From assembly GCF_029433255.1 (NCBI RefSeq), contig NZ_JAQTHU010000001.1, forward strand, positions 1,178,001 through 1,242,000: a stretch of 64,000 bases of DNA, read 5' to 3'. Position 1 is the stretch's first letter; every line of letters starts with the position of its first letter. The stretch comes from Lactobacillus sp. ESL0791 (GTDB lineage: Bacteria > Bacillota > Bacilli > Lactobacillales > Lactobacillaceae). The translations under genes were made by a program, and so were the position numbers. This document shows, one piece after another, positions 7,509 to 30,054 of the stretch. Under the pieces are notes generated by a model. The model was not told where the DNA came from. It saw only the letters and a program-made list of their open reading frames with translations, and ran no database searches.

Positions 7509-7531
7509 TTGTTTCTTTCCCCGCTACTTTC

Positions 7532-8113: not shown

Positions 8114-8115
8114 AA

Positions 8116-9120: not shown

Positions 9121-9957
9121 ATGAAACAGATTGGTGATACCTTGAGGGCATTGCGTACCTCTAAGCACGTTACACAAAAACAGTTAGCAGAAGGTATTCT
9201 AGACAGAAGCGATCTTTCTAAAATTGAACGTAATTTGATTGAGCCATCCTATACTAGTTTAAACTTACTCATTTCTCGTCTAGGAATTACTGGCGATGAA
9301 TTTGAGTACATTTGCAATGACTATTCTTGGTCACCCAAGCTTAAGCTAATGTATGATTTCTTTAAACTAGACTACACCACTGAACAGGAAAAAATTGTCG
9401 ACTTTCTGAAGCGCTGCGCGGCTTTTGATAATGACGATGATATCAAAAAGATCTCACTGGTTTTACAGGCCTTACAAGTATTTGAAGAAAAAGACGGTTA
9501 TTTAAAAGCGCGCAAACTTGCGAAACCAGTTTGGTTTGATTATTTAGCTAAAACTTCAACTTGGACAATATCAGATTTATGCATTTTAAACATGATTTTC
9601 TTTGTTTTAGATGATGAAACCATTGCGGTTATCATCCCTGAAGCTGTCAAAACGATTGAAAATAAGTATCCTTTCCTGCAAAAATTAAGATTGAGTTTTA
9701 TCATTAATAAAGGCTATTTACAGATGAAACAACACGATTTTAGTGCTGCAACTGCAACGTTTAGAAATTCATTAGACCAAATAAAAAAGACAAAAAATTT
9801 TGCTGAATTACTTCTTGTTAAAGGACGAATTGCACTTTGTAAAAAGGATAAAGTTGGTGCATTAAAGTATTCAGATCTACTTATTGATATTGAAGCTCAA
9901 GCTACAGCCCGAGCTTTACAAGCCGAAATTCGAGAATTTAATTGTTTATTTAACTAG
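9121..9957 (+). CDS. Rgg-like transcriptional regulator 1
   Basis: A 278-residue protein with an N-terminal XRE helix-turn-helix (residues about 5-60: QKQLAEGILDRSDLSKIE) and a long helical C-terminal region of the kind that binds peptide pheromones in Rgg/PlcR-like regulators. WFDYL near residue 140 and the C-terminal EIREFNCLF recur in the two following genes. It is the first of three tandem paralogues. The 17 bases AAAAAGGAGTAATTATG around its start are repeated exactly at the second gene, supporting tandem duplication. It faces a divergent ABC operon across two dyads and probably controls it. Target and inducer are unknown. Confidence 0.85.
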   Translation: MKQIGDTLRALRTSKHVTQKQLAEGILDRSDLSKIERNLIEPSYTSLNLLISRLGITGDEFEYICNDYSWSPKLKLMYDFFKLDYTTEQEKIVDFLKRCAAFDNDDDIKKISLVLQALQVFEEKDGYLKARKLAKPVWFDYLAKTSTWTISDLCILNMIFFVLDDETIAVIIPEAVKTIENKYPFLQKLRLSFIINKGYLQMKQHDFSAATATFRNSLDQIKKTKNFAELLLVKGRIALCKKDKVGALKYSDLLIDIEAQATARALQAEIREFNCLFN

Positions 9958-9985
9958 GATATCTTTGACATAAAAAGGAGTAATT

Positions 9986-10819
9986 ATGCCTGAATTTGGA
10001 GAAACGATTAAAAAACTTAGGTTAGACAGAGCCATCAGTCAAGAAAATTTGACTGGGGATTTATTTGACCGCAGCATGCTTTCCAAGATAGAGAGTGGCA
10101 AGTCTTTTCCGTCACGTGCAGATGCCAGTGTTTTAATTCATCGCTTAGGTGCTAGTCTTGAAGAATTTGAATATATCGAGCGTGGTTACTTGCCAACCCC
10201 CAAGAGTAAAATCTTATATCAGCTTTTCAATATCAACTATAGTGTTGAAACTGAAAAAATAAAAAGCATTTTAAATGAGTGCCTCAAAATTGACAAAGAT
10301 GATGATATCAAGCGCATAATCCTCGTCTTACGCGCACAACTTTTACTTAATGAGCAGAATGGCTTTGCGAAAGCAAAAAGAATTGTTCAACCCATCTGGT
10401 TTGATTATTTAAGTAATATTAAAATTCCAACAATCACTGACATTTACCTTTTGAACTTTATTGCTTATGCATTTGATGATGAAACTAACAAAGCTATTAT
10501 TGCCAAAATTATTTTTACGATCGACAGTTACTACCCTTTTTTGCAGTCGCTAAAATGCAGCTCGTTAATCAATAAAGCAAGCCTGCAATTAGATAAACAT
10601 AATTTCACGGATGCTAAAGCAACTTTGTTAACGGCTCAGACTCTTGCCGAAAATCTTGCGCAATACCACAAAGTGCTGCTGTGCAAGTCAGAAATTGCGC
10701 TCTGTGATAAAGATAAGAAGGCAGCCGTCTATTACGCAGACTTACTAGAAAAAATAGGCGCTAAGGAAATTGCGCTAAAGTTACAAGCCGAAATTCGAGA
10801 ATTTAATTATCTCTTTTAA
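9986..10819 (+). CDS. Rgg-like transcriptional regulator 2
   Basis: A 277-residue paralogue of the preceding gene with the same layout: XRE helix-turn-helix (QENLTGDLFDRSMLSKIE), a helical C-terminal domain, WFDYL in mid-protein and the ending AEIREFNYLF. Only 28 bases separate it from gene 1 and the ribosome-site region is identical, so it is probably co-transcribed and arose by tandem duplication. No pheromone-like short gene is evident next to it. Confidence 0.85.
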   Translation: MPEFGETIKKLRLDRAISQENLTGDLFDRSMLSKIESGKSFPSRADASVLIHRLGASLEEFEYIERGYLPTPKSKILYQLFNINYSVETEKIKSILNECLKIDKDDDIKRIILVLRAQLLLNEQNGFAKAKRIVQPIWFDYLSNIKIPTITDIYLLNFIAYAFDDETNKAIIAKIIFTIDSYYPFLQSLKCSSLINKASLQLDKHNFTDAKATLLTAQTLAENLAQYHKVLLCKSEIALCDKDKKAAVYYADLLEKIGAKEIALKLQAEIREFNYLF

Positions 10820-10843
10820 ACTGAAATCTTCTCTTTTTGCAAA

Positions 10844-10873
10844 TTGTGATGTACAAAGTAAAAGGATTATAAT
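10844..10873 (+). promoter_or_regulatory. Promoter of the third Rgg-like gene
   Basis: TTGTGA (10844-10849), an 18-base spacer and a perfect TATAAT (10868-10873). The -35 box overlaps TTGCAAATTGTGA, which shares the TGCAAATT core of the two dyads upstream of gene 1 but is not a clean inverted repeat. It implies the third gene can be expressed separately. Confidence 0.5.
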
Positions 10874-10908
10874 ACAAATATTATCGCTGTAAAAAGAAGG
10901 AAAATATC

Positions 10909-11745
10909 ATGTTAGAATTCGGTGAAGCTATTCATTTGCTTCGGACATCCCACAAAATAACTCAGGCAAGCCTATCCAAGGGAATTCTTGATCGCAGCAG
11001 TCTATCCAAAATTGAGCACGGTAAGCTTTACGTTTCTCATGAAAATGCCGTCAAACTGATTGCTCGCCTTGGTGTCACTGAAGAAGAATTTGAATATTTC
11101 AGAAGCAATTATTCGGCTAATAGAAAGCAGCAACTGCTTATACGCTTTTTCACCCTTGTAGACACAACGGAAAAAGCTAAGATTGACGCTTTAATCAACG
11201 ATTGTTTAGCTGAACAAAACGATCAGGACATTGGGCGAATTGCTATTATTTTGCAAGCTTTGCAATTATTGGGACAACCACATGGCTTTTCCAGAGCTTG
11301 TGAACTAGTTCAACCAATTTGGTTTGATTATCTTGCTCAAGTTAAGGAGTTAACCGTTTTGGACACTTGTCTTCTAAGTGTCATTATTTTTGCCTTCGAT
11401 GAAAAGACAGTTACAGAGATCATTAATCGACTCCTTTGGACAATTGATAATCGTTTCCCTTTTCTAAAATCCTTAAAATGCAATTTGTTGACTAATCGCG
11501 GGTTTATGCAAATGACCCAAAACAAATTTGCCCAAGCTAAGGAAACGCTATTGCAGGCATTAACACTGGCTCAGGAAAATGCTAATAAAAAATTGATAAT
11601 CAAAACACGCCTGGAAATTTGCTCAAAGAAAAAAGAAAAGGCTTTCCATTATGCTAACTTAATGGAAGAAATCGGGACAAAAGAAAACGCTGCTGCCTTA
11701 AAGCGTGAAATTAACCAATTTGATTATTTATTTGCCAAGGATTAA
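10909..11745 (+). CDS. Rgg-like transcriptional regulator 3
   Basis: A 278-residue third paralogue: XRE helix-turn-helix (QASLSKGILDRSSLSKIE), a helical C-terminal domain, WFDYL in mid-protein, ending in EINQFDYLF plus three residues. It has its own promoter 89 bases or less after gene 2 and a different ribosome-site region, so it is the more diverged or older member. A shared terminator with the opposing ABC operon follows. Confidence 0.85.
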   Translation: MLEFGEAIHLLRTSHKITQASLSKGILDRSSLSKIEHGKLYVSHENAVKLIARLGVTEEEFEYFRSNYSANRKQQLLIRFFTLVDTTEKAKIDALINDCLAEQNDQDIGRIAIILQALQLLGQPHGFSRACELVQPIWFDYLAQVKELTVLDTCLLSVIIFAFDEKTVTEIINRLLWTIDNRFPFLKSLKCNLLTNRGFMQMTQNKFAQAKETLLQALTLAQENANKKLIIKTRLEICSKKKEKAFHYANLMEEIGTKENAAALKREINQFDYLFAKD

Positions 11746-11795: not shown

Positions 11796-12566
11796 CTAGA
11801 ACTTTCTCTTTCTGAAAACCGTGTAACCTAAAATAAAAAAGATTAGTAGATAAGCCATCGTTCCCATGATAAGTTCGGGATTAAGCAATTTAGTGGTTGC
11901 ATGATACGTTATAAAATTATAGTACTGCCGCGTTAGATTGAACATGTTAAACGGATTCCACCTCATGAGCTTCACATTTGCAAATTTTGTGAAAGTCAGC
12001 AATTCATCAGAAATGGATTGCCCCATAAAAATAACCAAAAGGCTGACGGTGATCACAATGGCATTACTCCTGCTTAGGCATGAGAGCAGGAAGACTAAAC
12101 TGATAAGCAGCATAGTAGTCATCAGATCAACCAGCATCGTCTTCAGCATGTTCTCCCACAGTGGCTGCTGGTATTGGTAGATTATTGTCCATGAATAGCG
12201 GCTTCCTAATAAAATTGGTTTTAATATTAGCGTAAACATGATAGCAAGAAAATGTAATAAAAGATCATAGGCAAAAATCACAACAAATTTTGCCAAGTAA
12301 ACCTTAATTTTGCTGTTAGCCTTATAAAGCAAGGTTAAAATTGCGTTATTTTGAAATTCCATTGAAAAAGTGGTCGAACCAACTACTACCAAAATGAACA
12401 TGATCCAGTCAGGAGCATCAAAGCAGGTCATCATCAGCAACTTTCCTTCAGCGATCCCAAAAGCAAAAGCTGCCATAAGCATTAATGCAAGGAGAAATAG
12501 AGGTGCAATCCAGGTACTTTTTTTATGTGTTAATTTATAAAATTCTTGCTTGATGCTGAATATCAT
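11796..12566 (-). CDS. ABC-2 type permease, second of the operon
   Basis: A 256-residue membrane protein with about six transmembrane segments, ending in a basic tail (VFRKRKF). It shares with the next upstream gene the stretch SxxFxMEFQNNAILTLLYK / SAFFAMEYSNQTILMLLYK and the block KIKVYLAKFxVIF, so the two are paralogues and probably form a heterodimeric channel with the ATPase at 13320-14192. This is the layout of bacitracin- or lantibiotic-type export and immunity systems (BcrB/MutE-G-like). The substrate is not known. Confidence 0.8.
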   Translation of the reverse strand: MIFSIKQEFYKLTHKKSTWIAPLFLLALMLMAAFAFGIAEGKLLMMTCFDAPDWIMFILVVVGSTTFSMEFQNNAILTLLYKANSKIKVYLAKFVVIFAYDLLLHFLAIMFTLILKPILLGSRYSWTIIYQYQQPLWENMLKTMLVDLMTTMLLISLVFLLSCLSRSNAIVITVSLLVIFMGQSISDELLTFTKFANVKLMRWNPFNMFNLTRQYYNFITYHATTKLLNPELIMGTMAYLLIFFILGYTVFRKRKF

Positions 12567-12582
12567 CTTCGTGTCTTCTTTC

Positions 12583-13317
12583 TTATATTCTGCGTTTTTT
12601 AAATAGCCAGTAACCTAAAACCGCAAATAATAAACCGTAACCTAGTGTACCTAAAACCAGTTGCAGATTAGTTAAATGGGAAATCTGCATGTAAGAAGCC
12701 TTGGTTAACTGCTGCGAAATAAAAATCATGTTGAGCGGATTCCACTTTAAAAGATTAACGAAGCTAGGAAAAGACTTCATCAGATTAGTTGCTAAGGGGC
12801 CACCAAAAAATCCTAGAGCGAGACCGACACAAATCACAACCGCATTGTTTCTTACCAGCATGATCAGCATAAACGATAAGCCCACAATGAAAACAGCATA
12901 AACGACTTCGCCCATCATATTGAATAGCAAGTCTGTTACCCACGTTTTGTTGTGAATATCACCAGCAAGCAAAAATTTTAATAAAACTGTATTTAAAATT
13001 GCCACCAGCGTCAACAACAAACCATAAATGAAGATAACCAAAAATTTGGCAAGATAGATCTTTAACTTGCCCGCATTTTTATACAGCAGCATGAGTATCG
13101 TCTGGTTGCTGTACTCCATTGCAAAGAAGGCTGAACCAACTGCAATTAAAATAATCAGGATCCATTCAACTGCGCCAAAACCTAGGCTTAAAGTATCAGC
13201 GTCAATCTTAGATGTAATTGCGTTGTAAACCATTGTTAATAGCAAGGCCAATAAACCATAATAAGGAACTTTTTGGTGCAAAAATTTATAAACTTCTACT
13301 TGGAAACTGCTAGTCAT
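12583..13317 (-). CDS. ABC-2 type permease, first of the operon
   Basis: A 244-residue paralogue of the downstream permease, with six predicted transmembrane segments and the same loop before KLKIYLAKFLVIF. The start at 13317 lies 2 bases after the ATPase stop, so translation is probably coupled. It ends in LFKKRRI. Family and context point to a lantibiotic/bacitracin-type transporter; export substrate unknown. Confidence 0.8.
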   Translation of the reverse strand: MTSSFQVEVYKFLHQKVPYYGLLALLLTMVYNAITSKIDADTLSLGFGAVEWILIILIAVGSAFFAMEYSNQTILMLLYKNAGKLKIYLAKFLVIFIYGLLLTLVAILNTVLLKFLLAGDIHNKTWVTDLLFNMMGEVVYAVFIVGLSFMLIMLVRNNAVVICVGLALGFFGGPLATNLMKSFPSFVNLLKWNPLNMIFISQQLTKASYMQISHLTNLQLVLGTLGYGLLFAVLGYWLFKKRRI

Positions 13318-13319
13318 TA

Positions 13320-14192
13320 TTATGACCTCTGCTTTGCTAGAATATCAACAACTATTTGTTCAAAATCTGCCGTTGCGGGATGCATTTCTGTTAAATGAAT
13401 GTGGTTTTTGAGGAGTAGATCTTGGATCGAATAAACATCTTGCCGCTTAACGACTAAATAAGCGTCTTGACTGACAAATTCAATCTTATTGTCTGCCAAT
13501 AGTTTTCCCGCGGACAAATTATTCTCCGTGCCTAACTGGTATTTTTGCTGCCTAAGCCGGTTAAATTCAGCTACTTCTTGATCAATGATAATCTTGCCAC
13601 TATTGATTAAAATGGCCTTGGTCATCACTTTTTGCAATTCACTGAGAATATGGCTGGAAATTAAAAAAGCGGTACCAGCTTCGGCATAATGTTTAATCAG
13701 CTGCCGGACTCGGATCGTTGCGGTAACGTCCAAGCCGTTCATCGGTTCATCAAGAATAATTAATTGGGGCTTATTTAAAAATGCAATCGCAATGCCCAAT
13801 TTCTGTTTCATCCCCAGAGAATACCCTGCTACCTTTTTATCAATGTAGTCAGACATTTCTAGAACCGCAATCAGATTATTCATATCTACCTTATCTTTAC
13901 TGTACAGAATCAAATTTTGCCTGCCCGTTAAAAAAGGATAGATTGCGGGATGTTCAATTAGCGCTCCAGTTTTGGTTAAGGCTTGATGGTTATTGGCGGT
14001 AACCTCTACCCCATTGATTTTGATGGTGCCGGTAAATTTTGTCAGGCCAAGAATCGTTTTCATCGTAGTCGTCTTGCCCGCGCCGTTGGGACCAATCAAA
14101 CCGACGATTTCGCCAGCCTTAATCTGAAAATTAATACCTTGAATAATTTTTTTATGACCAATAAAGACATTGAGATTCTGAACTTTCAACAT
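13320..14192 (-). CDS. ABC transporter ATP-binding protein (BcrA/MutF-like)
   Basis: A 290-residue ATPase: Walker A GPNGAGKT (34-41), signature YSLGMKQKLG (124-133), Walker B LIILDEP (about 144-150) and a C-terminal extension of about 80 residues typical of the bacitracin/lantibiotic immunity type. It energises the two permeases that follow. It is second in the operon, 19 bases after the small regulator. Confidence 0.9.
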   Translation of the reverse strand: MLKVQNLNVFIGHKKIIQGINFQIKAGEIVGLIGPNGAGKTTTMKTILGLTKFTGTIKINGVEVTANNHQALTKTGALIEHPAIYPFLTGRQNLILYSKDKVDMNNLIAVLEMSDYIDKKVAGYSLGMKQKLGIAIAFLNKPQLIILDEPMNGLDVTATIRVRQLIKHYAEAGTAFLISSHILSELQKVMTKAILINSGKIIIDQEVAEFNRLRQQKYQLGTENNLSAGKLLADNKIEFVSQDAYLVVKRQDVYSIQDLLLKNHIHLTEMHPATADFEQIVVDILAKQRS

Positions 14193-14211
14193 GAATTTTA
14201 TCTCCTAATTA

Positions 14212-14595
14212 TTAATGCGAACCAAGAGAAAGCGCAATAAAAAAGCCGAGAACGAAGATAACAAACAAAAAAATTAACGTCAGCCACCAAAAATGGCCCA
14301 AAAAATCCCAAAAGTTCATCGTGCCGTAGCGGCGGACATATTTATTCTTTTGCGGATCAAAAACGAATTGGCTGCTGTCTATTTTCGGATCATTTTTAAG
14401 GCCTAATACTAAATCGTCTAAGCTAACGTTAAAAATTCCTGCTAGCTTAACAACATTATCTAAATCCGGTGTTGAATCCCCCGCTTCCCATTTGGAAATC
14501 GCCTGCCTGCTGATTGATAATTTAGCTGCCAGATCGTCTTGCGATAAGGAATTTTTTTTGCGGTAAGTTTTTAATTGTTCTGCGAATTTGATCAT
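14212..14595 (-). CDS. XRE-family regulator with C-terminal membrane anchor
   Basis: A 127-residue protein. Residues 5-65 are an XRE helix-turn-helix (SQDDLAAKLSISRQAISKWE). Residues about 96-123 form one strong transmembrane helix (FWWLTLIFLFVIFVLGFF), so the repressor is probably tethered to the membrane. It is the first gene of the ABC operon 11796-14595, which suggests autogenous control in response to membrane stress or the transported compound. The promoter lies in 14596-14782, where no clear consensus was found. Confidence 0.82.
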   Translation of the reverse strand: MIKFAEQLKTYRKKNSLSQDDLAAKLSISRQAISKWEAGDSTPDLDNVVKLAGIFNVSLDDLVLGLKNDPKIDSSQFVFDPQKNKYVRRYGTMNFWDFLGHFWWLTLIFLFVIFVLGFFIALSLGSH

Positions 14596-19135: not shown

Positions 19136-19720
19136 ATGGCTAATAAATCTAAAACTAACAAGCAAGAAAATGAGAGTTGGGGCAGAACTATCCTTGATGC
19201 TGTCATTATGGTGGCAGTCATCTGGGCTGCTTTCTGGCTGCTGTTCAGAGCAAGTTTTGCGCCCTTCTCTAACGACCGCGTGTCCGGTATTTCAATGCAG
19301 CCGACCTTTGAAGACAATGACCGTTTAATCGCTTCAAGAAAGTTTCAGCCTAAACGCAACATCACAGTTGTTTTGTATGCCCCTAAGGCTGCCAACGACC
19401 AGCCTGGAGCAGTTTATATTAAGCGCATGATTGGCTTGCCTGGTGACACGATTGTTTCCAAAAATGATCAGATCTACGTTAATGGCAAACAATTGCCCGA
19501 GCCGTATCTAAATAATAATTACAAAAAAGCTGACAACGACCGCGGTATGACTTATACCAATAATTTTACAGTTAAGGTTCCTAAAGGAAAATATTTTGTC
19601 ATGGGCGACCATCGCGATGTTTCTAAGGATTCACGGATTTTTGGTTTTGTTAAGCGCAGCGAATTTATCGGTCAAGTCAAGTTGCGCTACTGGCCGTTTA
19701 ATAAAATACAAACTTACTAA
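19136..19720 (+). CDS. Type I signal peptidase, copy 1
   Basis: A 194-residue membrane-bound signal peptidase. The transmembrane helix is at about residues 19-40. The catalytic Ser is in SGISMQPTFEDNDRL (about residue 55) and the catalytic Lys in YIKRMIGLPGD. The conserved MGDHRDVSKDSR is near the C-terminus. It cleaves Sec signal peptides outside the membrane. AAAGGAG precedes the ATG, and TATAAT at 19101-19106 is a probable -10 box. A second, closely similar gene follows. Confidence 0.95.
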   Translation: MANKSKTNKQENESWGRTILDAVIMVAVIWAAFWLLFRASFAPFSNDRVSGISMQPTFEDNDRLIASRKFQPKRNITVVLYAPKAANDQPGAVYIKRMIGLPGDTIVSKNDQIYVNGKQLPEPYLNNNYKKADNDRGMTYTNNFTVKVPKGKYFVMGDHRDVSKDSRIFGFVKRSEFIGQVKLRYWPFNKIQTY

Positions 19721-19753
19721 TTAATATTGCATTCAAAGGATTTAGAAAAAGTT

Positions 19754-20317
19754 ATGACGAATAAATCTAAAAATCAAAATGAAGAAAGCTTTGGCAGATC
19801 TGTCCTTGATGTCATTATCATGGTAGTCATTATGCTTGGCATCTACTATCTGCTATTTACGTTTGTCCTGTCAAACGATAATGTTTCGGGACCATCCATG
19901 CAACCGACTTTTGAAAATAATGATCGTTTAATTGCGGTGAGGCACTTTAATCCCCAACGCAACAATATTGTGATTCTCAAGGCTCCGGATGAAAAAGGTG
20001 CCATTTATATCAAGCGCATCATCGGCCTGCCCGGTGACATGGTCACCTCAAAGAAGGATAAGTTATACATTAACGGCAAACAAATCGCCGAGCCATACTT
20101 AAATAATAAGTATAAAAAAGCCGACAATGCCGCAGGCCAGTCTTATACTAACGATTTCACACTGAAAAGACGGGTACCGAAAAATTGTTACTTCGTCATG
20201 GGTGACCACCGTGATGTTTCCAAAGATTCCCGATACTTCGGTTTTGTTAAGCGCAGTGCGTTAGTCGGTCAAGTTAAGTTACGCTACTGGCCGTTTAATA
20301 AAATTGGCACTTTTTAA
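19754..20317 (+). CDS. Type I signal peptidase, copy 2
   Basis: A 187-residue paralogue of the preceding gene with the same catalytic Ser (SGPSMQPTFENNDRL), Lys (YIKRIIGLPGD) and MGDHRDVSKDSR motifs, and one N-terminal membrane helix. The start is placed at the ATG at 19754, because MTNKSKNQNEESFGRSVLD lines up with the N-terminus of copy 1; AAGGA lies 13 bases upstream, slightly far. A TTG at 19727 in the same frame lacks a ribosome site. Tandem duplication is evident. Division of labour between the copies is unknown. Confidence 0.93.
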   Translation: MTNKSKNQNEESFGRSVLDVIIMVVIMLGIYYLLFTFVLSNDNVSGPSMQPTFENNDRLIAVRHFNPQRNNIVILKAPDEKGAIYIKRIIGLPGDMVTSKKDKLYINGKQIAEPYLNNKYKKADNAAGQSYTNDFTLKRRVPKNCYFVMGDHRDVSKDSRYFGFVKRSALVGQVKLRYWPFNKIGTF

Positions 20318-20843: not shown

Positions 20844-22184
20844 TCAATTTATAGAGACTTGATTAATATTGAAAGTATACTTACCAATATGGGGAAGTTG
20901 TTTTTTATTAGGAATCAAATATATATAAAACTCAAATGAATGGGATTCAGGGTCATCTTCATCAAATACTGAAGACGCTCCGATCCTATAGTTTTCAAAA
21001 TCAGTAAATGTTTTGTGCATTTTTTTCAAATCTTTTTTTATTAATTCTTTTTCGCTCTTAAATATCTTTTTTCTGTCTTTAGCAGAATTAATTGCACCTT
21101 TATAAGAACTAATGTCAGAAAATTCTATCAACTTTTTGTCATCAGGATTTTTAAATCCCAGTATATCACTGACTATATCAGCATGTCCTTGTTCATCCTC
21201 GTCATCAGCATCATCAGTGTTATAGCCAGAATAACCAAATTCTAAATCAGCGGCTAACTGGACTTGTTTGTTCTTTATTGTTTTAGGAAAAAGCTTTATT
21301 AATTTCTGATCAATTAATGAACCACTTATACAATAGGGATATTCTACTGTCTTAGGGTCAAAATAAACACGAGGCTGTATAGGTAGTTTTGCATTTGTGG
21401 GCAATAAATAAATAACTGATTTACCATAATTCTTCTTATTTGTTTTAGGAGTAACATAGCCACCAATTAAATAATTACTAAAATCAGTGAAATTTTTACC
21501 TTGCTTTACTAATTCTTGATTAATTTGCTTTTTTTCAAATGACAGCAACTGATTATCTGGTCCTGTGAATTTCTCATTATTGACAAGTCTAACGATATTA
21601 TTGTTGTCTTTATCCAGTAAGTCTTTTTCAACATACGTATATGGTTTGATATTATCAAACGAAGTAACATCGTATGGCATTCTGCCATATAAATCAGCAG
21701 CTAATTGCACTTGTTTGTTTCTAACAGTTCCTGGAAAAAGCTTGATTAAGCTATTGTTGATTTTATTATTGAGTTCATTAATTGACTTATCAATTGCCGG
21801 ATTTTTTGGATCAAAAAGCCATATTGGTCTATTCGACATGCCTCTTGCTAAATAGCCTTGCCAAACATAGGCAGGCTGTGCTAAGGAATCTCCCGATATT
21901 TTATAGTAATTATCTTTTTCAGTACCATGTTTCAAAGTAATTTTTCCGTTGACATATAAAGTACTGTCAGTAAAACCTTTTAAATTGCCTTTTTTCTTAG
22001 TATGGTCCCTATTCCATATAATCATATTCTTACATGGATTTTTGATATGATACGGCTTTATCTTGTAATTTTTTTGACTGACTATTGCATATCTGGCTGC
22101 ATAAACTTTGTTCGTAGTAAATTGTGTAGCGATATTTAATAAAGAAATAAATAACATAATAGAAAGTAAATATTTGTGCTTCAT
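20844..22184 (-). CDS. Secreted protein with two internal repeats and SH3-like N-terminal part
   Basis: A 446-residue exported protein with a signal peptide (about residues 1-29, ending NKVYA). Residues about 40-115 resemble the wall-associated SH3/SLAP-like segments of lactobacilli (IIWNRDHTKK, TLKHGTEK, YVWQGYLARG). Two homologous units follow at about 140-268 and 289-432. Each has LIKLFP-T--NKQVQLAADL, an (E)KKQINQEL / EKELIKKDL block, FTDF-NY-IG and a closing IYL(L/I)P. No LPXTG anchor is present. Function unknown; attachment may be non-covalent. AAGGAG precedes the ATG. It is transcribed towards the shared terminator. Confidence 0.75.
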   Translation of the reverse strand: MKHKYLLSIMLFISLLNIATQFTTNKVYAARYAIVSQKNYKIKPYHIKNPCKNMIIWNRDHTKKKGNLKGFTDSTLYVNGKITLKHGTEKDNYYKISGDSLAQPAYVWQGYLARGMSNRPIWLFDPKNPAIDKSINELNNKINNSLIKLFPGTVRNKQVQLAADLYGRMPYDVTSFDNIKPYTYVEKDLLDKDNNNIVRLVNNEKFTGPDNQLLSFEKKQINQELVKQGKNFTDFSNYLIGGYVTPKTNKKNYGKSVIYLLPTNAKLPIQPRVYFDPKTVEYPYCISGSLIDQKLIKLFPKTIKNKQVQLAADLEFGYSGYNTDDADDEDEQGHADIVSDILGFKNPDDKKLIEFSDISSYKGAINSAKDRKKIFKSEKELIKKDLKKMHKTFTDFENYRIGASSVFDEDDPESHSFEFYIYLIPNKKQLPHIGKYTFNINQVSIN

Positions 22185-22472
22185 AATAACTCCTTACCTA
22201 AATTTTTATTAATTGGTTATAGCATAGTATTTTGCGTATTAAAACAAAATTGATAATTGTCTTTTATATTTAAGATGTTTTTCGGTATCTCTATTTTAAG
22301 CTTAACTAGTATGCTAGTACTTTTTCACTGCTCATGCTCATTAATTTTAGTAGTATGCTCTATTTTCTAACTAGTTTAAAATTATTTGTAATTAAAAGTT
22401 GAAGAAATTTGTGTTCTTCATACTTTTGAATGAAACCGGGTAATAGTTTAATAATTGTTTGATTATTTGCTC
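22185..22472. other. AT-rich gene-free stretch left of the IS element
   Basis: No gene is seen. It holds the upstream region of the secreted-protein gene: on the minus strand an extended -10 box (TGC followed by TATAAC, 22216-22224). It also has imperfect inverted and direct repeats around 22293-22383 (TTTTAAGCTTAACTAGT against AACTAGTTTAAAAT; AGTATGCT twice). These may be folding or remnant sequence; no function can be assigned. Confidence 0.4.
22459..22472 (+). repeat. 14-base direct repeat, left flank of IS
   Basis: TTGATTATTTGCTC directly abuts the left inverted repeat of the IS30-family element. The identical 14 bases abut the right inverted repeat at 23705-23718. Read as the target-site duplication. 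Confidence 0.75.
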
Positions 22473-22498
22473 GCCGAGTTTACAATCTAAGTGCAACA
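22473..22498 (+). repeat. IS left terminal inverted repeat
   Basis: It begins GCCGAGTTTACAA and ends AAGTGCAACA. It matches the complement of 23679-23704 at 19 of 26 positions. Confidence 0.8.
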
Positions 22499-22575
22499 GT
22501 TGATAAAGCACGACAAAAAAAGCCATAAAGACTAAACTGTTAATTATTTACCCCAATAACAGAAAGGTGTCTTTT

Positions 22576-23589
22576 ATGACTTCAGTTAATTCTAACACAT
22601 ATACTCATTTATCTCCTGCTGAACGCGGTCAAATTCAAGCTTTATCTGAAGCTGGCTTATCCATGCGTAAAATTGCTCTTAAACTTGAGCGCAATGCCAG
22701 TACTATTTCCCGCGAATTAAAGCGTAACCGCACGACTCAGCTAGATTATCAAGGTAAGTATTTCGGTGCTTACTTCGCTGATACGGCGCAAATTTATTAT
22801 CATAGGCGGCGACAAGCTTGTCATGCTAAAGATTATTGCCTTAAGGCACAGGATTTTTTTAATCAGCTGACATTGATTATCAAGAATCCCTTTCGTGATG
22901 ATGGTATTGATGGTTTTATTGCTAATTACAAGCGAATGTATCCTAGTTGCCCCTGTCCCTCAACACCAATGGTTTACCGCTTAATTGATCAAGGTAAATT
23001 GGCAATTAAGAACGGTGATCTTCCTCGTAAAGTTCGGCTAAGGCACTCAGGACATCATCGTAAGCGTACCCGCCAACACAAGAAACGTCTTGGCAATTCT
23101 ATTGAGCAAAGACCTAAAGCAGCTGATGAACGCAGTGAGGCTGGCCACTTTGAAGGGGATCTGGTGAAAGGCATTAGGCGTGCGACTAGTTCGGCTTTGC
23201 TGACTCTTACTGATCGCAAAACTCGCTTTGAAATCATAATTAAAATACCTGATTACAAAGCAGATACTTGTTTCAAAGCAGTTCAGAAAGCAGTCAATGA
23301 CCACCCTGGTTGGTTTAAAACGATTACGTTTGACAATGGTTCAGAATTTGCTCGCGTTGATGAAGTGAAGGGGGTAGATGTTTATTTTGCCCATCCTTAC
23401 ACACCAAGTGAGCGTGGCAGTAACGAGAATGCCAATGGCCTGCTGCGAGAATTTTTCCCTAAGGGCAAGACAATGGCAAAGGTGACTGATGAATATGTAA
23501 AACGGGCACAAAATGCCTTGAATAACAAACATCGGAGAATTCTCGGATATCAAACAGCAAGGGAAGTTTTTATGGCAGAGATAGCCTGA
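22576..23589 (+). CDS. IS30-family transposase
   Basis: A 337-residue transposase. The N-terminus has an IS30-type helix-turn-helix (LSPAERGQIQALSEAGLSMR, then ASTISRELKRN). The DDE core shows HFEGDLVKG, TFDNGSEFA and the Glu in SNENANGLLREFFPKG. No frameshift or stop interrupts it, so it is probably active. The start is the ATG at 22576 with AAAGG 8 bases upstream; a GTG at 22567 lies within that ribosome site. Confidence 0.95.
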   Translation: MTSVNSNTYTHLSPAERGQIQALSEAGLSMRKIALKLERNASTISRELKRNRTTQLDYQGKYFGAYFADTAQIYYHRRRQACHAKDYCLKAQDFFNQLTLIIKNPFRDDGIDGFIANYKRMYPSCPCPSTPMVYRLIDQGKLAIKNGDLPRKVRLRHSGHHRKRTRQHKKRLGNSIEQRPKAADERSEAGHFEGDLVKGIRRATSSALLTLTDRKTRFEIIIKIPDYKADTCFKAVQKAVNDHPGWFKTITFDNGSEFARVDEVKGVDVYFAHPYTPSERGSNENANGLLREFFPKGKTMAKVTDEYVKRAQNALNNKHRRILGYQTAREVFMAEIA

Positions 23590-23718: not shown

Positions 23719-23831
23719 TATCTTTTCTGTAATTTGTTTCTTGACTTCTTTCAATGCTGATAACAGGTAGATCCATTAACTTAGTGGAAGCAGAAATTAA
23801 AAAACAATTATTCTTTTCTTGACTCAAACAT

Positions 23832-23872
23832 AAAAAACGCCTTTCAAGTAGTTTAACCTGGAAGGCGTTTTT
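23832..23872. terminator. Terminator of the six-permease operon
   Basis: AAAAACGCCTTTC and GGAAGGCGTTTTT form the stem, with A/T runs on both sides. On the minus strand it lies just after the last membrane-protein gene (stop at 23894). The stretch 23719-23831 between the IS and this hairpin shows no gene. Confidence 0.75.
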
Positions 23873-23893
23873 AATTTGCTCTATTTTAAAGTT

Positions 23894-24700
23894 TTACTTA
23901 TTCGATTCTGCTTCAACAAAGCGATTGATCAAAAATAAATTAATTCCTGCAATCACAATATCATAACTAAATATGATAATCAGCTCTTCTATCATCTTAC
24001 GATTAATTCCATGGGAGATTCCTTCAAAGATACCGACCATCTGCGGCAAAACGTTATCAATAAAATCAATCATAATCCAACTAAGAACGATAATTAACAC
24101 TAAGCGAATCAAATTAACAATAAGTTTACTTGAAGTCCCGGGTAAAAATTCAGCTAATGAATGACTTGTAAAATTTAAAAAACTAACAGTTACATAAAGA
24201 GCCGCACCAACTAAAACGAACATTAATGCCGTTTCTAAGATACGATCAATGCCTACTCTTTGCAGTAAAGAAACAAAATTACTAAAATCTTGATGGTCAT
24301 TTATAAATAAATCGTAGACAAATTCAGGCACAGTTATAATTAAAACCTGCAAAATCATTAGATAAATAAACGAAAATAATGCACTTAAAGTGTTGGCTAA
24401 GTAAAGACCAATATCACTGACAGGTGCTAGTCGCCAAGTTTGGCTGCGGTTAACTTTTTCGACCTTACTGCTGCTATAAGCTAAATAAATCGTATCTAAA
24501 ACAAAACTGGTGATAAAAATCGTTAAAACATACACGACTGGAAATTCTTTCCAAGGACTAGCCGTATAATTGCCCAGTGTGCTACTCACAAGCCAAGCAG
24601 CGATAAAAACCGCGCCAATCAGCTGAACCAGCAGAAAACAGTACGCATATTTACTCCTTTTTCTAAATAATTCACTAAATAAATTTTTGCTTTCATTCAT
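23894..24700 (-). CDS. ABC permease-like membrane protein MP6 (last of six paralogues)
   Basis: A 268-residue protein with about six transmembrane helices. It carries the family motif NRSQTWRLAP (84-93) in the loop after TM2, which corresponds to the ATPase-contacting loop of ABC-2 permeases. It has FTSHSLAEFLPGTSSK before TM5 and the C-terminal EAESNK. It is most similar in layout to MP1 at the head of the array (both carry the long TM3-TM4 loop). Probably a membrane partner of the single ATPase at 28863-29567. Substrate unknown. Confidence 0.75.
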   Translation of the reverse strand: MNESKNLFSELFRKRSKYAYCFLLVQLIGAVFIAAWLVSSTLGNYTASPWKEFPVVYVLTIFITSFVLDTIYLAYSSSKVEKVNRSQTWRLAPVSDIGLYLANTLSALFSFIYLMILQVLIITVPEFVYDLFINDHQDFSNFVSLLQRVGIDRILETALMFVLVGAALYVTVSFLNFTSHSLAEFLPGTSSKLIVNLIRLVLIIVLSWIMIDFIDNVLPQMVGIFEGISHGINRKMIEELIIIFSYDIVIAGINLFLINRFVEAESNK

Positions 24701-24717
24701 TCTTTTTTCCTCCTTTT

Positions 24718-25497
24718 TTACTTATTCGGTTCGGCTTCAACGGCTTTGGTGATTAACAACAAATTGGTCACCAACAAAATAATGTCGGTTATAAGAAACG
24801 CTGTTAAATTACCTGGCAGGTACTCTCCCAAATTTAAGGCAATCTCGCGGAATGATTCTCTTTCAATAATTGGCCAAACAAGATGAATAAATACTTGAAA
24901 ACCTATCCAGCAAATGATGACCAAGATAATTATTCTGATTAGATTAATCATAAATTTTCCAGAATTGGTTGGCAGAAAATCGCCGATTGCTTCTCCGCTA
25001 AAATCTATCAAGCTAACAGGCAAATAAAAGGTTAAGCCAATTAAAACAATTAAAGCTAAAAACCCGATCGTTTCCGCTACGCCAACATCCTTAATGATAT
25101 TACCTAAAGTTTTTATGTCTTGTAAAATGAAATTACTTGTTATGTCCTGCAACACGATTAAAGCAAGATATGTGATTATTTGAATAATTCCAAAATAAAT
25201 GTATGACATAAGTGAACTTAAGATATTAGCTAGATAAAATTGCCTATCATTAACTGGGATTAACCGCCAAGTCTGATTGCTGTTTAATTTTTCGGAGCGT
25301 AAACTCGAAAAAATTAAATACAGTGCATCAAAAACAAAACTTAAAAATAAGAAAATTGCTGCTAAATTATTGAAAATCATTTCTGGAGACGGCAGCGTCA
25401 TAGCAGTTGCTGCTAGTAATTGAACCATAAAAAACCAATTAACTGTTTTAAATTTGTCTTTAAAAAGCATTTTAAAAATTTTAGTTGAAAGTTGCAT
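24718..25497 (-). CDS. ABC permease-like membrane protein MP5
   Basis: A 259-residue protein with about six transmembrane helices. The loop motif is NSNQTWRLIP (72-81) and the C-terminus EAEPNK. It is a near copy of MP4 over its whole length (both begin MQLS-KIFKMLFK-K-KTVNWFF), showing a recent tandem duplication. It starts 18 bases after MP4 stops. The role is assumed shared with the rest of the array. Confidence 0.75.
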   Translation of the reverse strand: MQLSTKIFKMLFKDKFKTVNWFFMVQLLAATAMTLPSPEMIFNNLAAIFLFLSFVFDALYLIFSSLRSEKLNSNQTWRLIPVNDRQFYLANILSSLMSYIYFGIIQIITYLALIVLQDITSNFILQDIKTLGNIIKDVGVAETIGFLALIVLIGLTFYLPVSLIDFSGEAIGDFLPTNSGKFMINLIRIIILVIICWIGFQVFIHLVWPIIERESFREIALNLGEYLPGNLTAFLITDIILLVTNLLLITKAVEAEPNK

Positions 25498-25515
25498 CGT
25501 GTTCTCCCCTCCCTT

Positions 25516-26301
25516 TTACTTATTCGGTTCAGCTTCAAATGCTTTAGTAATTAACAATAAATTGGTCGCCAACAAAATAATATCGGTTATAAGAAATACA
25601 GTTAAATTACCTGGTAAGTATTCCCCCAGATTTAAGGCAATCTCTGATAATGATTCTCTTGCGATGATTGGCCAAACAAGATTATACACTTGAAAACCTA
25701 TCCAACAAATGATAACCAAGATAATTATTCTAATTAGGTTAACCATAAATTTCCCAGAACTGATTGGTAGAAAATCAACGATTGCTTCGCTACTAAAATC
25801 TATCAAGCTAACAAATAGATAAAAGGTTAAGCCAATTAAAACTATCACAAATAAAACACCGATCGTTTCGCTCACGCCAACATCCTTAATGATGTTACGA
25901 ATAGTTTTTATGTCTTGTAAAACGAAATTAGTTTTAACGTCCTGCAGCATAATTAACATAAAAAACGTAATTATTTGAATAATCCCAAAATAAATGTATG
26001 ACATAAGTGAACTTAAGATATTAGCCAGATAAAATTGACCATCACTAACAGCAATTAGCCGCCAAGTCTGATTACTGTTTAACTTTTCAGCGCGTAAACT
26101 TGAATAAATTAAGTACAGTGCCTCCAAAATAAAGCTAGAAACAAAGAAAATTGCTGCAAAATTGTTAAAAAACATCTCTGAAATCGGCCTGAAAGTAAGT
26201 GTTAGAGTAATTGCTGCTAGTATTTGCACTATAAAAAACCAATTAACTGTTTTAAGCTTACCTTTAAAAAGCATTTTAAAAATTTTAGCCGAAAGTTGCA
26301 T
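25516..26301 (-). CDS. ABC permease-like membrane protein MP4
   Basis: A 261-residue near-duplicate of MP5. The loop motif reads NSNQTWRLIA (75-84), with Ala replacing the otherwise common Pro. The C-terminus is FEAEPNK. About six transmembrane helices. It sits in the same tightly spaced minus-strand operon. Confidence 0.75.
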   Translation of the reverse strand: MQLSAKIFKMLFKGKLKTVNWFFIVQILAAITLTLTFRPISEMFFNNFAAIFFVSSFILEALYLIYSSLRAEKLNSNQTWRLIAVSDGQFYLANILSSLMSYIYFGIIQIITFFMLIMLQDVKTNFVLQDIKTIRNIIKDVGVSETIGVLFVIVLIGLTFYLFVSLIDFSSEAIVDFLPISSGKFMVNLIRIIILVIICWIGFQVYNLVWPIIARESLSEIALNLGEYLPGNLTVFLITDIILLATNLLLITKAFEAEPNK

Positions 26302-26318
26302 TGTGTTTTTCCCCTCCT

Positions 26319-27152
26319 TTATTTATTGGATTCTGCTTCAAACGTTTTATTAATCATTAGAACATTAGCTATGCCAAGAATTAGATCAATAATTAAAAGA
26401 ATTAAATTAACCCGAGTAATATTACCAAAATCACCATTAAAGATAATCTCTGCAAAAGTTCGCAAATTCGGACCATTAAAGATAAATATGTCGAGTATCT
26501 CGTATGCCAGCCAGCAAACTAAAATTATGATCAGTAGTCTTACTAAGTATAAAGCGAACTTGCCGGATACAGATGGTAGAAAATCAACAATTGTTGAACT
26601 TGTAAAGTTAATAAAGCTAAGGACCAGATAAAATAACGTTACTGATAGAACTAGTAAGACAATGATTTCAACTAGCCAAATGGTTTCATTAGCTTCAATT
26701 AAGGACCAGCTAAATTTTGCTAAAGTTTCTTGTCGAATTTTCTCAGAACATAATTCGGCCAAGCCGTAGAAAACGCCAGCACTTATTACTTGCAGTATCG
26801 TAAGTCCCACTACTGCCATAAACGAACTAAAAAGATTGGTCAGATAGATTTTCCCAGCACTTGCGGGAATTAACCGCCAAGTTTGACTGCGATTAATTTT
26901 TTCATTACTGTAGGCTGTTAAAATTACAAAAATCGGGTCGTACAATAAACAAAATATTAGAAGCAAGTTAGCTGTATAAAGAAAGAAATTCCCAAATTGA
27001 AAGTGAACAAGTACGATTTGATTATCGCCCTTAATAAAGCACAGTACGCCGCTGACCAAAGCGCTGATTATTTGCAATATAAGAAAGGTCCAAATTAAGT
27101 TACGTCGTTGTTCAAACAGTTCAGAAAACAAATTTTTAAAAGAAGTCTTCAT
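26319..27152 (-). CDS. ABC permease-like membrane protein MP3
   Basis: A 277-residue protein from the ATG at 27152, which follows AAAGGCGAGAAG; the frame extends to 27194 but that part overlaps MP2. The loop motif is NRSQTWRLIP (87-96) and the C-terminus TFEAESNK. It is closest to MP2: both share the SELFEQR / HELFKQR start, LVSGVL/LVGGLM and VLMINKTFEAE. About six transmembrane helices. Confidence 0.75.
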   Translation of the reverse strand: MKTSFKNLFSELFEQRRNLIWTFLILQIISALVSGVLCFIKGDNQIVLVHFQFGNFFLYTANLLLIFCLLYDPIFVILTAYSNEKINRSQTWRLIPASAGKIYLTNLFSSFMAVVGLTILQVISAGVFYGLAELCSEKIRQETLAKFSWSLIEANETIWLVEIIVLLVLSVTLFYLVLSFINFTSSTIVDFLPSVSGKFALYLVRLLIIILVCWLAYEILDIFIFNGPNLRTFAEIIFNGDFGNITRVNLILLIIDLILGIANVLMINKTFEAESNK

Positions 27153-27171
27153 ATTTACTTCTCGCCTTTCA

Positions 27172-27987
27172 TTACTTATTCGGTTCAGCTTCAAATGTTT
27201 TATTAATCATTAGAACATTGGCTGCCAGGAAAATTAAATTAATCACTAGCAATACTAAATCAAAAATTGTGATTCTTTGTGTATCAACCAAACTTATATT
27301 TGCAAAATTGAAAATATTAATCACTCGAATTATTACCCATGAGATAACGATTATTAGTAGCAAGCGGGTTACCAATAATGCGAATTTGCCGGAAACACTT
27401 GGCAAAAAATTAATGATCGAGGAACTGGAAAAGTTAATAAAACTGGTTACGGCATACAGTAAGATACTTAAAAGTATCAAAAAGATTAACGTGCCAACTA
27501 TCCAAATTACAGCATTAGTTTGATCTCGATCCCAGCGCCAATTTATGTTCGCAAAAAGTTTGGCGGTGTCTTGACGCATGGCAGCAGAACTTATTTCAGC
27601 TAAACCAAAGAGTACGCCAGCACTTACTATTTGCAGTAATGCTAAACCAACTAATGCCATAAATGAACTAAAAAGATTAGTCAGATAAATTTTCCCGGAA
27701 CTTGCCGGAATTAAGCGCCAAGTTTGACTCTGATTGATCTTTTCATTCCTGTAAGCTGTTAAAATCACAAAAAGCAAATCGTAAATTAACCCCAAAAATA
27801 GAAATATTGTTCCGCTAGCCACAAAGAAGTCGCCCCACTGAAAGTTGCGAATGGTAATGTGACTATCTTGGCTAAAAGACATCAACCCACCGACAAGTGC
27901 AATGAGAATTTGCAGTAAAAAGAAAAGCCAAATTAAATTGCTTCGCTGCTTAAACAGTTCATGAAATAAATTCCTAAAAGATGTCAT
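27172..27987 (-). CDS. ABC permease-like membrane protein MP2
   Basis: A 271-residue protein with about six transmembrane helices. The loop motif is NQSQTWRLIP (85-94), with SSSSIINFLPSVSGK before TM5 and the C-terminus TFEAEPNK. It forms a closely related pair with MP3, so a second duplication is visible in the array. Confidence 0.75.
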   Translation of the reverse strand: MTSFRNLFHELFKQRSNLIWLFFLLQILIALVGGLMSFSQDSHITIRNFQWGDFFVASGTIFLFLGLIYDLLFVILTAYRNEKINQSQTWRLIPASSGKIYLTNLFSSFMALVGLALLQIVSAGVLFGLAEISSAAMRQDTAKLFANINWRWDRDQTNAVIWIVGTLIFLILLSILLYAVTSFINFSSSSIINFLPSVSGKFALLVTRLLLIIVISWVIIRVINIFNFANISLVDTQRITIFDLVLLVINLIFLAANVLMINKTFEAEPNK

Positions 27988-28010
27988 TTTTATCCCTATC
28001 TTTCTAACAT

Positions 28011-28859
28011 TTATTTATTCGGTTCGGCTTCAAACGAATGACTAATTAAGAACATGTTAATTGCACCAATGACAAGGTCATAGGCTAAAACAATTAGCAG
28101 CACTGTACTGATCCTTCCGTAATCACCACTGCCAGTTACAAAATCGAATGGCATGCGCAAGATAGGATTAAGAATGCCCATAATTCTGTTTACCAACCAA
28201 CAAATCGCAATAATCAAAATTATGCGAATCAAATTAACCAAAAATTTACTGGAAATACTTGGCAAAAAGTCAACCAACGACCGACTGCTAAAGTTCAAGA
28301 AACTGACACTGATATAAATCGCTAAGCCGACTAATAGCATCAGAATAATTAATTCCAGTGCTTCCGTAAGATGAGCAGTTACAAAATCACTGTGCTCTGT
28401 TACCGCCTGCATAATATCATTAATCGAAGAATTGATACTCTTACGAAAGTCTTGATTAGTTGCTGAAACCCAACCAGTTAAAATTCCCACAAAAATTGCC
28501 TGCAATAAATTTAAATAAATAAGTGATAAAAAAGAACTCAAAGTGTTACATAAATAAATATTGCCATCGGCTAACGGAATTAAGCGCCAGGTTTGACTGC
28601 GATTCACGTTTTCATTCTTGGCGCAGGTAATCAACAAATAAATAAATGCAGTAATAAAGGATGTCGCTAAAAAAGAAGTATAAAAATCAATCGGCAAGCC
28701 AAACATTTGCACGTCTTTATTGATAAAAACCCCGCCATGGCTGAAAACCATAAAAAGAGCAAATATAAAGGAAACAATTATTTGGATTAAAATTACCTGG
28801 TGCGTTACGCGGCTTTTTTGCTTAAAAAATTCAACAAAAGTTTTGCCAAAAGTGGTCAT
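28011..28859 (-). CDS. ABC permease-like membrane protein MP1 (first of six paralogues)
   Basis: A 282-residue protein with about six transmembrane helices. The loop motif is NRSQTWRLIP (86-95), with FSSRSLVDFLPSISSK before TM5 and the C-terminus SFEAEPNK. Its start lies 3 bases after the ATPase stop, so it is translationally linked to the ATPase. It resembles MP6 more than MP2-MP5. Confidence 0.78.
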   Translation of the reverse strand: MTTFGKTFVEFFKQKSRVTHQVILIQIIVSFIFALFMVFSHGGVFINKDVQMFGLPIDFYTSFLATSFITAFIYLLITCAKNENVNRSQTWRLIPLADGNIYLCNTLSSFLSLIYLNLLQAIFVGILTGWVSATNQDFRKSINSSINDIMQAVTEHSDFVTAHLTEALELIILMLLVGLAIYISVSFLNFSSRSLVDFLPSISSKFLVNLIRIILIIAICWLVNRIMGILNPILRMPFDFVTGSGDYGRISTVLLIVLAYDLVIGAINMFLISHSFEAEPNK

Positions 28860-28862
28860 TAT

Positions 28863-29567
28863 TTACTCATCCTCTCCCTCGTAAAGTCCTTCATAGTAGT
28901 CTTCAATACTCTCATGATGCTCGCGAATTTCTTCGGCAGATTTATGCGCATAAACCGTGTTGTCCTTGATAATGACAACTTCATCAAGAAGAGAAGCAAT
29001 TTCGTTAACAAAGTGATCAGAAATCAAAATCGTGGCCTCTTTGTCCTTCCACAAAATGATCGAATTAATGATTTTCTTGCGGGCCATGGCATCAATTCCG
29101 CCAAACGGTTCATCAAGCAGATACAGGTCGGCTTTTCTAGCAAAGGTCAGTGCAATAATCAACTTTTCCCGCATCCCCCGCGATAACTGCCCCAGCTTCA
29201 TTTCTGGATCCAGGTTCATGAATTTGTATAATTGCTCAAATTCATTGGTATCAAAATCTTCAAAAATATGTTCGTAAAATTCAACCACGCTCTTAATCTT
29301 GGTTGAATTATTAAAACCGGTTAACCCATCGGTGAAGGCAATTTTGGCTTTTTTTCCACTTTCTGAAGTGATGCCCTCAACTTCAACCGTTCCCTTATAT
29401 TTTTTCGCCATACCGCTGATAATCCGCATCAACGTTGTCTTACCGGCGCCATTTTCACCAAGCAGAGCAACAATTTTACCCGAGCTAAGTGTTAAATTGA
29501 CATCCCGTAAAATAGTTTTTTGGTTTTTCTTGTAAGTTAAGTTTTTAATCGTTAATATTTCATTCAT
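28863..29567 (-). CDS. ABC transporter ATP-binding protein (YtrB-like)
   Basis: A 234-residue ATPase: Walker A GENGAGKT (37-44), signature LSRGMREK (128-135), Walker B LYLLDEP (148-154). The signature lacks the usual SGG, as in other YtrB/NatA-like exporters. It is the only ATPase in the operon, so it presumably serves all six membrane proteins. Its start overlaps the GntR gene's stop by 8 bases. The C-terminal acidic tail (YEGLYEGEDE) is unusual. Confidence 0.88.
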   Translation of the reverse strand: MNEILTIKNLTYKKNQKTILRDVNLTLSSGKIVALLGENGAGKTTLMRIISGMAKKYKGTVEVEGITSESGKKAKIAFTDGLTGFNNSTKIKSVVEFYEHIFEDFDTNEFEQLYKFMNLDPEMKLGQLSRGMREKLIIALTFARKADLYLLDEPFGGIDAMARKKIINSIILWKDKEATILISDHFVNEIASLLDEVVIIKDNTVYAHKSAEEIREHHESIEDYYEGLYEGEDE

Positions 29568-29931
29568 TGTTATCTTCCTGTTGTAAATATTGTTCTAGCA
29601 GCGGTAAAATTTCTTCTTTACCGATGCCTAGTTCCCTGATATTCTGAACAAACTTGCTTAGTTCATCGTTAACCAAGTCTCTTTTTGTTTGTGCAAGCAG
29701 TTCTTTATCTTCCGTGACGAAATTGCCTTCACCACGTTTGGTATATAAAATTCCCTGGTCATTCATTTGCTGCAGCGCCCGCTGCACCGTATTGACATTA
29801 ACCGTTAATTCAAGCGCCAGCTTACGCACGGATGGTACCTTTTGCCCAGCTGGCAATTTGCCAATTGCAATTTGGCGGAAAAGGTATTGCTCAATTTGCA
29901 AGTAAATTGGAATATTATCTTTGAATTCCAC
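29560..29931 (-). CDS. GntR-family regulator, YtrA subfamily
   Basis: A 123-residue protein. Residues 1-70 are a winged helix-turn-helix (IPIYLQIEQYLFRQIAIG, VPSVRKLALELTVNVNTVQR). The C-terminal part of only about 50 residues is typical of the YtrA subfamily. Such proteins usually repress the ABC operon they head and are relieved by cell-wall-active compounds. It is the first gene of the operon that holds the ATPase and six membrane proteins. Confidence 0.9.
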   Translation of the reverse strand: MEFKDNIPIYLQIEQYLFRQIAIGKLPAGQKVPSVRKLALELTVNVNTVQRALQQMNDQGILYTKRGEGNFVTEDKELLAQTKRDLVNDELSKFVQNIRELGIGKEEILPLLEQYLQQEDNNE

Positions 29932-29950: not shown

Positions 29951-29983
29951 AGTGTATTATTTATCTATGACAATATCATACAC
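29951..29983. promoter_or_regulatory. Candidate GntR/YtrA operator
   Basis: AGTGTA (29951-29956) and TACAC (29979-29983) form an inverted repeat 22 bases apart, just upstream of the regulator. The half-site agrees with those I recall for YtrA-type regulators, though the spacing is wider. The -35-like TTGTCA on the minus strand lies between the arms, which fits autorepression. Confidence 0.5.
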
Positions 29984-30054
29984 CATTTTCTTTTTCCTAG
30001 CAAAACTTTTCTCAAATAAATTTAATTGTTTCACCAAAGCAGTTTTCGCTCTTT

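Follow-up and report, generated by a model that had tools for sequence, protein, structure and literature searches.

Results

Layout of the operon

The 64,000-nucleotide stretch of the Lactobacillus sp. ESL0791 genome analysed here, the window (contig NZ_JAQTHU010000001.1, positions 1,178,001 to 1,242,000), carries at 23894-29931, on the minus strand, an operon encoding a GntR regulator of the YtrA type, one ATP-binding cassette (ABC) ATPase and six paralogous membrane proteins, P1 to P6. An original prediction, made from the letters of this DNA, had described an eight-gene operon on this strand with six membrane proteins of 259-282 residues, and so we find it; all eight frames are open and the counts are right. 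The regulator (29560..29931, 123 residues, GTG start; Pfam GntR, 50.6 bits) overlaps by 8 base pairs (bp) the frame of the ATPase (28863..29567, 234 residues; Pfam ABC_tran, 86.8 bits). The permeases follow as P1 (28011..28859, 282 residues), P2 (27172..27987, 271 residues), P3 (26319..27152, 277 residues from the ATG at 27152, or 14 more from an alternative TTG start at 27194), P4 (25516..26301, 261 residues), its tandem duplicate P5 (24718..25497, 259 residues) and P6 (23894..24700, 268 residues), the gaps between the eight frames measuring, in order, -8, 3, 23, 19, 17, 18 and 17 bp.

Upstream of the regulator, on the same strand, lies a promoter-like site, TTGCTA-17-TATGAT (29975..30003, 9 of 12 matches), and between its -10 element and the start codon an operator-like inverted repeat, GTGTAnTA-N6-TAnTACAC, whose left half is degenerate (29951..29973). 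At the other end of the operon, also on the minus strand, a long hairpin with a T run after it (23822..23885) has the form of an intrinsic terminator; it was seen by RNA folding (-22.1 kcal/mol, z -5.62, with none of 200 shuffles as stable) and is unlisted by a simple terminator scan. Together the promoter-like site, the repeat and the terminator are consistent with a single transcription unit. Promoter-like sites are not enriched in the region (22, against a shuffle mean of 24.9), and because of this the one described owes its weight solely to its position directly ahead of the repeat.

The permeases form one ABC-2-like family

The kinship foreseen for the six membrane proteins is borne out. 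They align as a single homologous family with 34 invariant columns, and their pairwise identities lie at 29-36%, except for P2/P3 (58%) and P4/P5 (80%); that they belong to unrelated families, or are a chance array of open frames, is ruled out by this shared alignment and by the genus-wide presence of the family. The prediction was right that sequence blocks are shared, although it counted two where three conserved bands are seen, one around QTWRL (83-108), one around FLP..S.K (186-212) and a C-terminal EAE.NK.

A hidden Markov model search of the six permeases against Pfam and NCBIfam found no family above its cut-off. P2 only gave a match to Pfam ABC2_membrane_4 (E 4.6e-5, 23.9 bits, below the cut-off of 27), and of 25 members of the family one matches this model. 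We call the permeases ABC-2-like because no curated ABC-2 profile reached its cut-off. Structure models of P1 and P4 resemble the membrane subunits of ABC-2 exporters (PmtCD, WzmWzt) over nearly the whole chain, and such proteins head the fold-search results; for P1, where Foldseek's own list was examined, the top row is PmtCD. In ABC-2 proteins the coupling helix, which contacts the ATPase, lies between the second and third helices, and in the permease QTWRL sits in the short loop that joins the second long helix to the third. At E <= 1 the lone sequence match to a solved protein is a chemokine receptor construct (E 0.0025 over 110 residues), which we took as chance.

The regulator and a conserved operator-like element

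The GntR domain of the regulator occupies residues 10-72 of 123, as in the short YtrA-type form (about 120-130 residues with a reduced C-terminal domain), and its best solved relatives are the short GntR proteins Lmo0741 (84.7 bits) and Lin1836. No second YtrA-type regulator occurs in the ESL0791 genome, the five other GntR-like matches sitting in frames of 241-264 residues. Among NCBIfam models PmtR is the second-best match of the regulator (61.8 bits) and PmtA the best match of the ATPase (127 bits); with its one ATPase, the operon reaches neither curated model, the cut-offs being 200 and 350 bits.

The operator-like element is conserved in part of the relatives. AGTGTAATAGATAAATAATAC or a similar sequence precedes the regulators, with a full 21-base match in 4 of 86 and a score of 19 in the window. 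Scores of 18 or more are reached by 36 of the 86, whereas 1720 shuffles, which preserve base composition only, peak at 17; the remaining 50 score 17 or less, several of them at shuffle level, and the upstream regions that were scored are those from which the consensus had been read by eye. PMC4494728 describes YtrA-type operators as long palindromes whose GT and AC lie well away from the centre. In a pattern search of the ESL0791 genome the repeat of the window has 2 mismatches, and the pattern, at up to 3 mismatches, is not enriched genome-wide (19 and 16 sites, against 29 and 33 for the reversed control). A wider regulon that would include an unlinked permease of the same genome, described below, was rejected on this lack of enrichment, and no listed site stands just before that gene. 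A separate TTGTGAAACAA-like element lies about 75-115 bp before the regulator start (near 30026-30037 in the window) and recurs in several relatives, for example L089, L091, L054 and L076.

Distribution and copy number in relatives

How unusual is a set of six? Across 75 genomes of the genus, one per species and ESL0791 included, a profile of the six proteins matches 72 (missing G046, G057 and G067) and the ATPase is matched at E <= 1e-40 in 73 (missing G046 and G067). Genes were called in 75 loci, namely 73 comparison loci from 72 genomes, the window and the locus of the unlinked permease. Writing R, A and P for regulator, ATPase and permease, the architectures are RAPP (22), RAPPP (14), RAP (14), RAPPPRAP (11), RAPPPP (8), RAPAP (2) and one each of RRAPAP, RA (at a contig end), a lone P (the unlinked permease) and RAPPPPPP (the window). 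L042 and L062 each end in two P that are fragments of a single broken gene, and the fourth P of L041 is just 185 residues long. All 73 comparison loci start with R and then A, L079 of genome G033 being peculiar in that two adjacent YtrA-type regulators stand ahead of its A-P-A-P operon; a permease match follows in 72 (at just 22 bits in L107), the exception, L112, stopping at a contig end.

Counting permeases of at least 230 residues as intact, the 88 ATPases are accompanied by one (30), two (25), three (25), four (5), six (1, the window) or no (2) intact permeases. The 30 single-permease ATPases comprise 13 stand-alone units, three of which (L081, L105, L108) finish near a contig end, 11 second units of RAPPPRAP loci and 6 in A-P-A-P loci. 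No fetched operon besides that of the window exceeds four permeases.

Samples of the family and the order, for which a Lactobacillus-derived profile scored at most eight candidates per genome, so that distant or extra copies may be missed, give matches in at least 114 of 301 genomes across at least 16 of 40 genera, and in at least 31 of 295 genomes, respectively. Among the candidates scored, the 99 matching genomes of the family sample outside the genus have one match (80), two (13), three (5) or four (1), and L226 and L228 carry three tandem permeases. A contig scan with two exact peptide patterns returned 80 loci, with a permease in four (L113-L116). That the operon type is unique to ESL0791 is thus ruled out by R-A-P loci across the genus and in other genera. 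The six permeases of the window are the largest set among the sampled relatives; the operon itself, as the prediction missed, is ordinary and genus-wide, mostly with 1 to 4 permeases per ATPase, and six copies therefore stand last in a series of duplications, extreme in number but no new architecture.

Duplication history and genomic setting

In a tree of 184 permeases, a quick build with long branches flagged (those of window P1 and P6 among them), positional orthologues group with support inside clades, and P2/P3 and P4/P5 are fully supported pairs to which no gene from outside the window belongs. P4 and P5 are traversed by long direct repeats that are 82-86% identical and lie some 800 bp apart, and the two genes are under purifying selection (nonsynonymous divergence dN 0.11, synonymous divergence dS 0.50). 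Judging from these sequences, the permease set arose by repeated head-to-tail duplication with retention.

The site of the operon looks ancestral, since a PepT-like neighbour and a signal peptidase like those of the window are widely kept (in 52 and 55 of the 73 comparison loci, respectively, at E <= 1e-20 within the fetched stretches). In the window two tandem signal peptidase S26 genes lie at 19136-20317 on the plus strand, and between them and the operon, at 20844-23589, stand a transposase (HTH_38 and rve by Pfam), which we take to be IS30-like, and a 446-residue protein that belongs to no known family; at E <= 1e-20 the fetched stretches of the 73 comparison loci hold a match to neither. 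A small gene for a substrate peptide was sought in the two flanking gaps and rejected, as these hold only short open reading frames without ribosome sites that convince by eye. Elsewhere in the window, three consecutive helix-turn-helix regulators of 277-278 residues at 9121-11745 on the plus strand, the first with a sub-threshold Rgg_C match, perhaps form another small tandem array. A second ABC operon, at 11796-14595 on the minus strand, encodes a Cro/CI-type helix-turn-helix protein, an ATPase nearest to lantibiotic-protection models (below cut-off) and two permeases, which, unlike P1-P6, do reach Pfam ABC2_membrane_4. At 6909-8937, also on the minus strand, is a third ABC ATPase whose nearest model is again lantibiotic protection (below cut-off), adjoined by two proteins without a match in Pfam or NCBIfam.

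Conserved segments on the predicted side of the ATPase

With segments assigned by hand to cytoplasm, membrane or outside on the basis of the helices of P1, assuming an inside N-terminus, the six permeases are most alike in their cytoplasmic segments (mean pairwise identity 0.57, 22 of 65 positions invariant), less so in the membrane part (0.36, 12 of 129) and least in the outer segments (0.15, 0 of 88). When the labels were circularly shifted along the alignment, 5 of 281 shifts performed equally well. All three conserved bands fall on, or adjoin, the predicted cytoplasmic side.

The ESL0791 genome holds one close ATPase (E <= 1e-40), as it holds one regulator of this type, in keeping with the one regulator and one ATPase of the original prediction; a search of the same genome finds seven permeases. 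The seventh, unlinked to the operon, lies at 7756-8580 of locus L008 (C1:663755-664573 in the genome), and the surrounding 16 kilobases hold no regulator or related ATPase. Relatives, too, have lone permeases without an adjoining cognate ATPase, at a site other than that of this orphan and in 7 of the 7 cases fetched. One close ATPase for seven permeases, together with lone copies elsewhere, fits an ATPase that is shared, and the conserved segments predicted to face the ATPase, taken with the lone copies, suggest that all six permeases of the operon can dock on it.

Several observations call for caution here. A distant ABC ATPase of a different kind lies one gene from each of the seven lone permeases, and one of the seven (L220) is broken. 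The contrast between cytoplasmic and outer segments, 0.44 in 12 pairs from the window, is 0.29 in 10 pairs of single permeases and still 0.40 in 8 pairs of positional orthologues of like divergence; in the next band, of 33-42%, pairs from one operon and pairs of single permeases both give 0.33, and 9 positional-orthologue pairs give 0.07. The pairs in these comparisons are not independent. A signature of diversification of the outer face specific to the paralogues was thus seen but rejected as proof, the controls showing the contrast to be largely a general trait of the family.

Discussion

The locus is best read as an R-A-P operon for an ABC-2-type exporter, in which the permease gene was copied in tandem until six diverged versions stood behind one ATPase gene. 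A dimer of the ATPase would drive a dimer of two permease chains, and the six permeases probably share the ATPase as alternative homodimers or heterodimers, differing in what each recognises. Acting at the operator-like repeat beside the promoter, the regulator probably keeps the operon repressed until it is released by an inducer, which is likely to be a membrane-active compound. We give this reading as a whole somewhat better than even chances. The 13 stand-alone single-permease units suggest that a homodimer can work. Carried to its furthest, the reading becomes that of a combinatorial exporter, in which the six permeases of the operon and the unlinked one would form many homodimers and heterodimers on one ATPase (28 pairings of seven) and the range of substrates would shift by duplication of a single subunit; this we offer tentatively, as an extension that is rather doubtful.

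The expansion may instead be an ordinary tandem one with little new function, in which one pair works and the others are dosage copies or slowly decaying spares. Permease copy number ranges from 1 to 4 across the genus, the P4/P5 duplication is fairly recent, and broken or truncated extra copies occur in L041, L042, L062 and L220. Yet in the window no frame has been lost, the four lineages into which the six permeases fall are down to 29-36% identity with 34 positions still invariant, and the same four permeases are kept in 11 of 11 loci of the RAPPPRAP clade; we consider such an accumulation of spares possible but unlikely. ABC-2 exporters are dimers, and where ten two-permease loci form a clade the two copies are retained together, as would be expected of fixed heterodimers (for instance P1 with P6, P2 with P3 and P4 with P5), every one of them served by the shared ATPase. 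Against this arrangement stand the 30 of 88 ATPases that have a single intact permease, and L085, which groups with the first permease of the two-permease clade but has one permease only, and we hold its probability to be low.

The main role of the set might also be to sense or regulate an envelope stress response, and not to export, by analogy with ClnAB of Clostridioides difficile. There, as described in PMC6117091, a clnAB mutant alters the induction by LL-37 of its own operon, which adds little resistance to LL-37. However, nothing in the sequence favours sensing, and ClnAB is likened by description, not by sequence; for our operon this role appears quite improbable. We return, then, to a shared ATPase serving alternative permease dimers, and to the systems with which it may be compared.

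Close to it are the R-A-P operons of other Lactobacillaceae, for example those of Levilactobacillus brevis CD0817 (L115) and Lactobacillus hominis (L114), with an identical order of genes and homologous regulator, ATPase and permease, but one permease in place of six. The Pmt system has two ATPases and two permeases, and MsmK-type importers have different membrane proteins at several loci. Staphylococcal PmtR-PmtABCD, like the window, has a YtrA-type repressor ahead of an ABC exporter, which exports phenol-soluble modulin peptides according to PMC5080381, whose gene table shows pmtR, A, B and C. In Bacillus subtilis YtrGABCDEF, as described in PMC7828314, a YtrA-type repressor likewise accompanies an ABC transporter and induction is by cell-wall antibiotics, but two ATPases, two membrane proteins and a solute-binding protein are encoded. 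That one ATPase can serve several transporters is described for MsmK-type systems (PMC4519317), which, unlike the ABC-2-like proteins of the window, are sugar importers. Lactiplantibacillus plantarum lp_2742-lp_2744, likened by description, has the same gene types, a regulator also of 123 residues and one permease against six (PMC4600210). Its transcription is reported to drop with gallic acid (PMC4600210), and that of lp_2743-lp_2744 with hydroxytyrosol (PMC7278804). The prediction knew of no described system with six permeases, and this holds in the open-licence papers searched, where we found no six-permease or shared-ATPase system of the YtrA-type R-A-P kind; three-gene operons of what appears to be this type, such as lp_2742-lp_2744, are in print.

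YtrA-type systems elsewhere respond to various compounds. Besides the responses of Ytr to cell-wall antibiotics and of lp_2742-lp_2744 to plant phenolics, Pmt is described as responding to phenol-soluble modulins (PMC5080381) and Cln to LL-37 (PMC6117091), a system of this type in Streptococcus thermophilus as responding to a bacteriocin-inducing peptide, and a pneumococcal one as being down-regulated by arachidonic acid. By analogy with these, an exporter for membrane-active compounds is plausible here. The original prediction had proposed a mix-and-match exporter or sensor for cell-envelope-active compounds; it is supported as to the single permease family, the one YtrA-type regulator and the one close ATPase, whereas mixed pairing, export and sensing are candidate properties, and the link to such compounds is drawn from distant YtrA-type systems.

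The locus thus draws attention to an unnamed permease family, present in 72 of 75 genomes of the genus, whose six members in the window reach no curated Pfam or NCBIfam cut-off. If the six indeed share one ATPase, the operons of the genus would constitute a natural series, of one, two, three, four and six copies, showing how substrates may be gained by copying the membrane subunit only, and ATPase sharing, known for sugar importers, would extend to ABC-2-like exporters.

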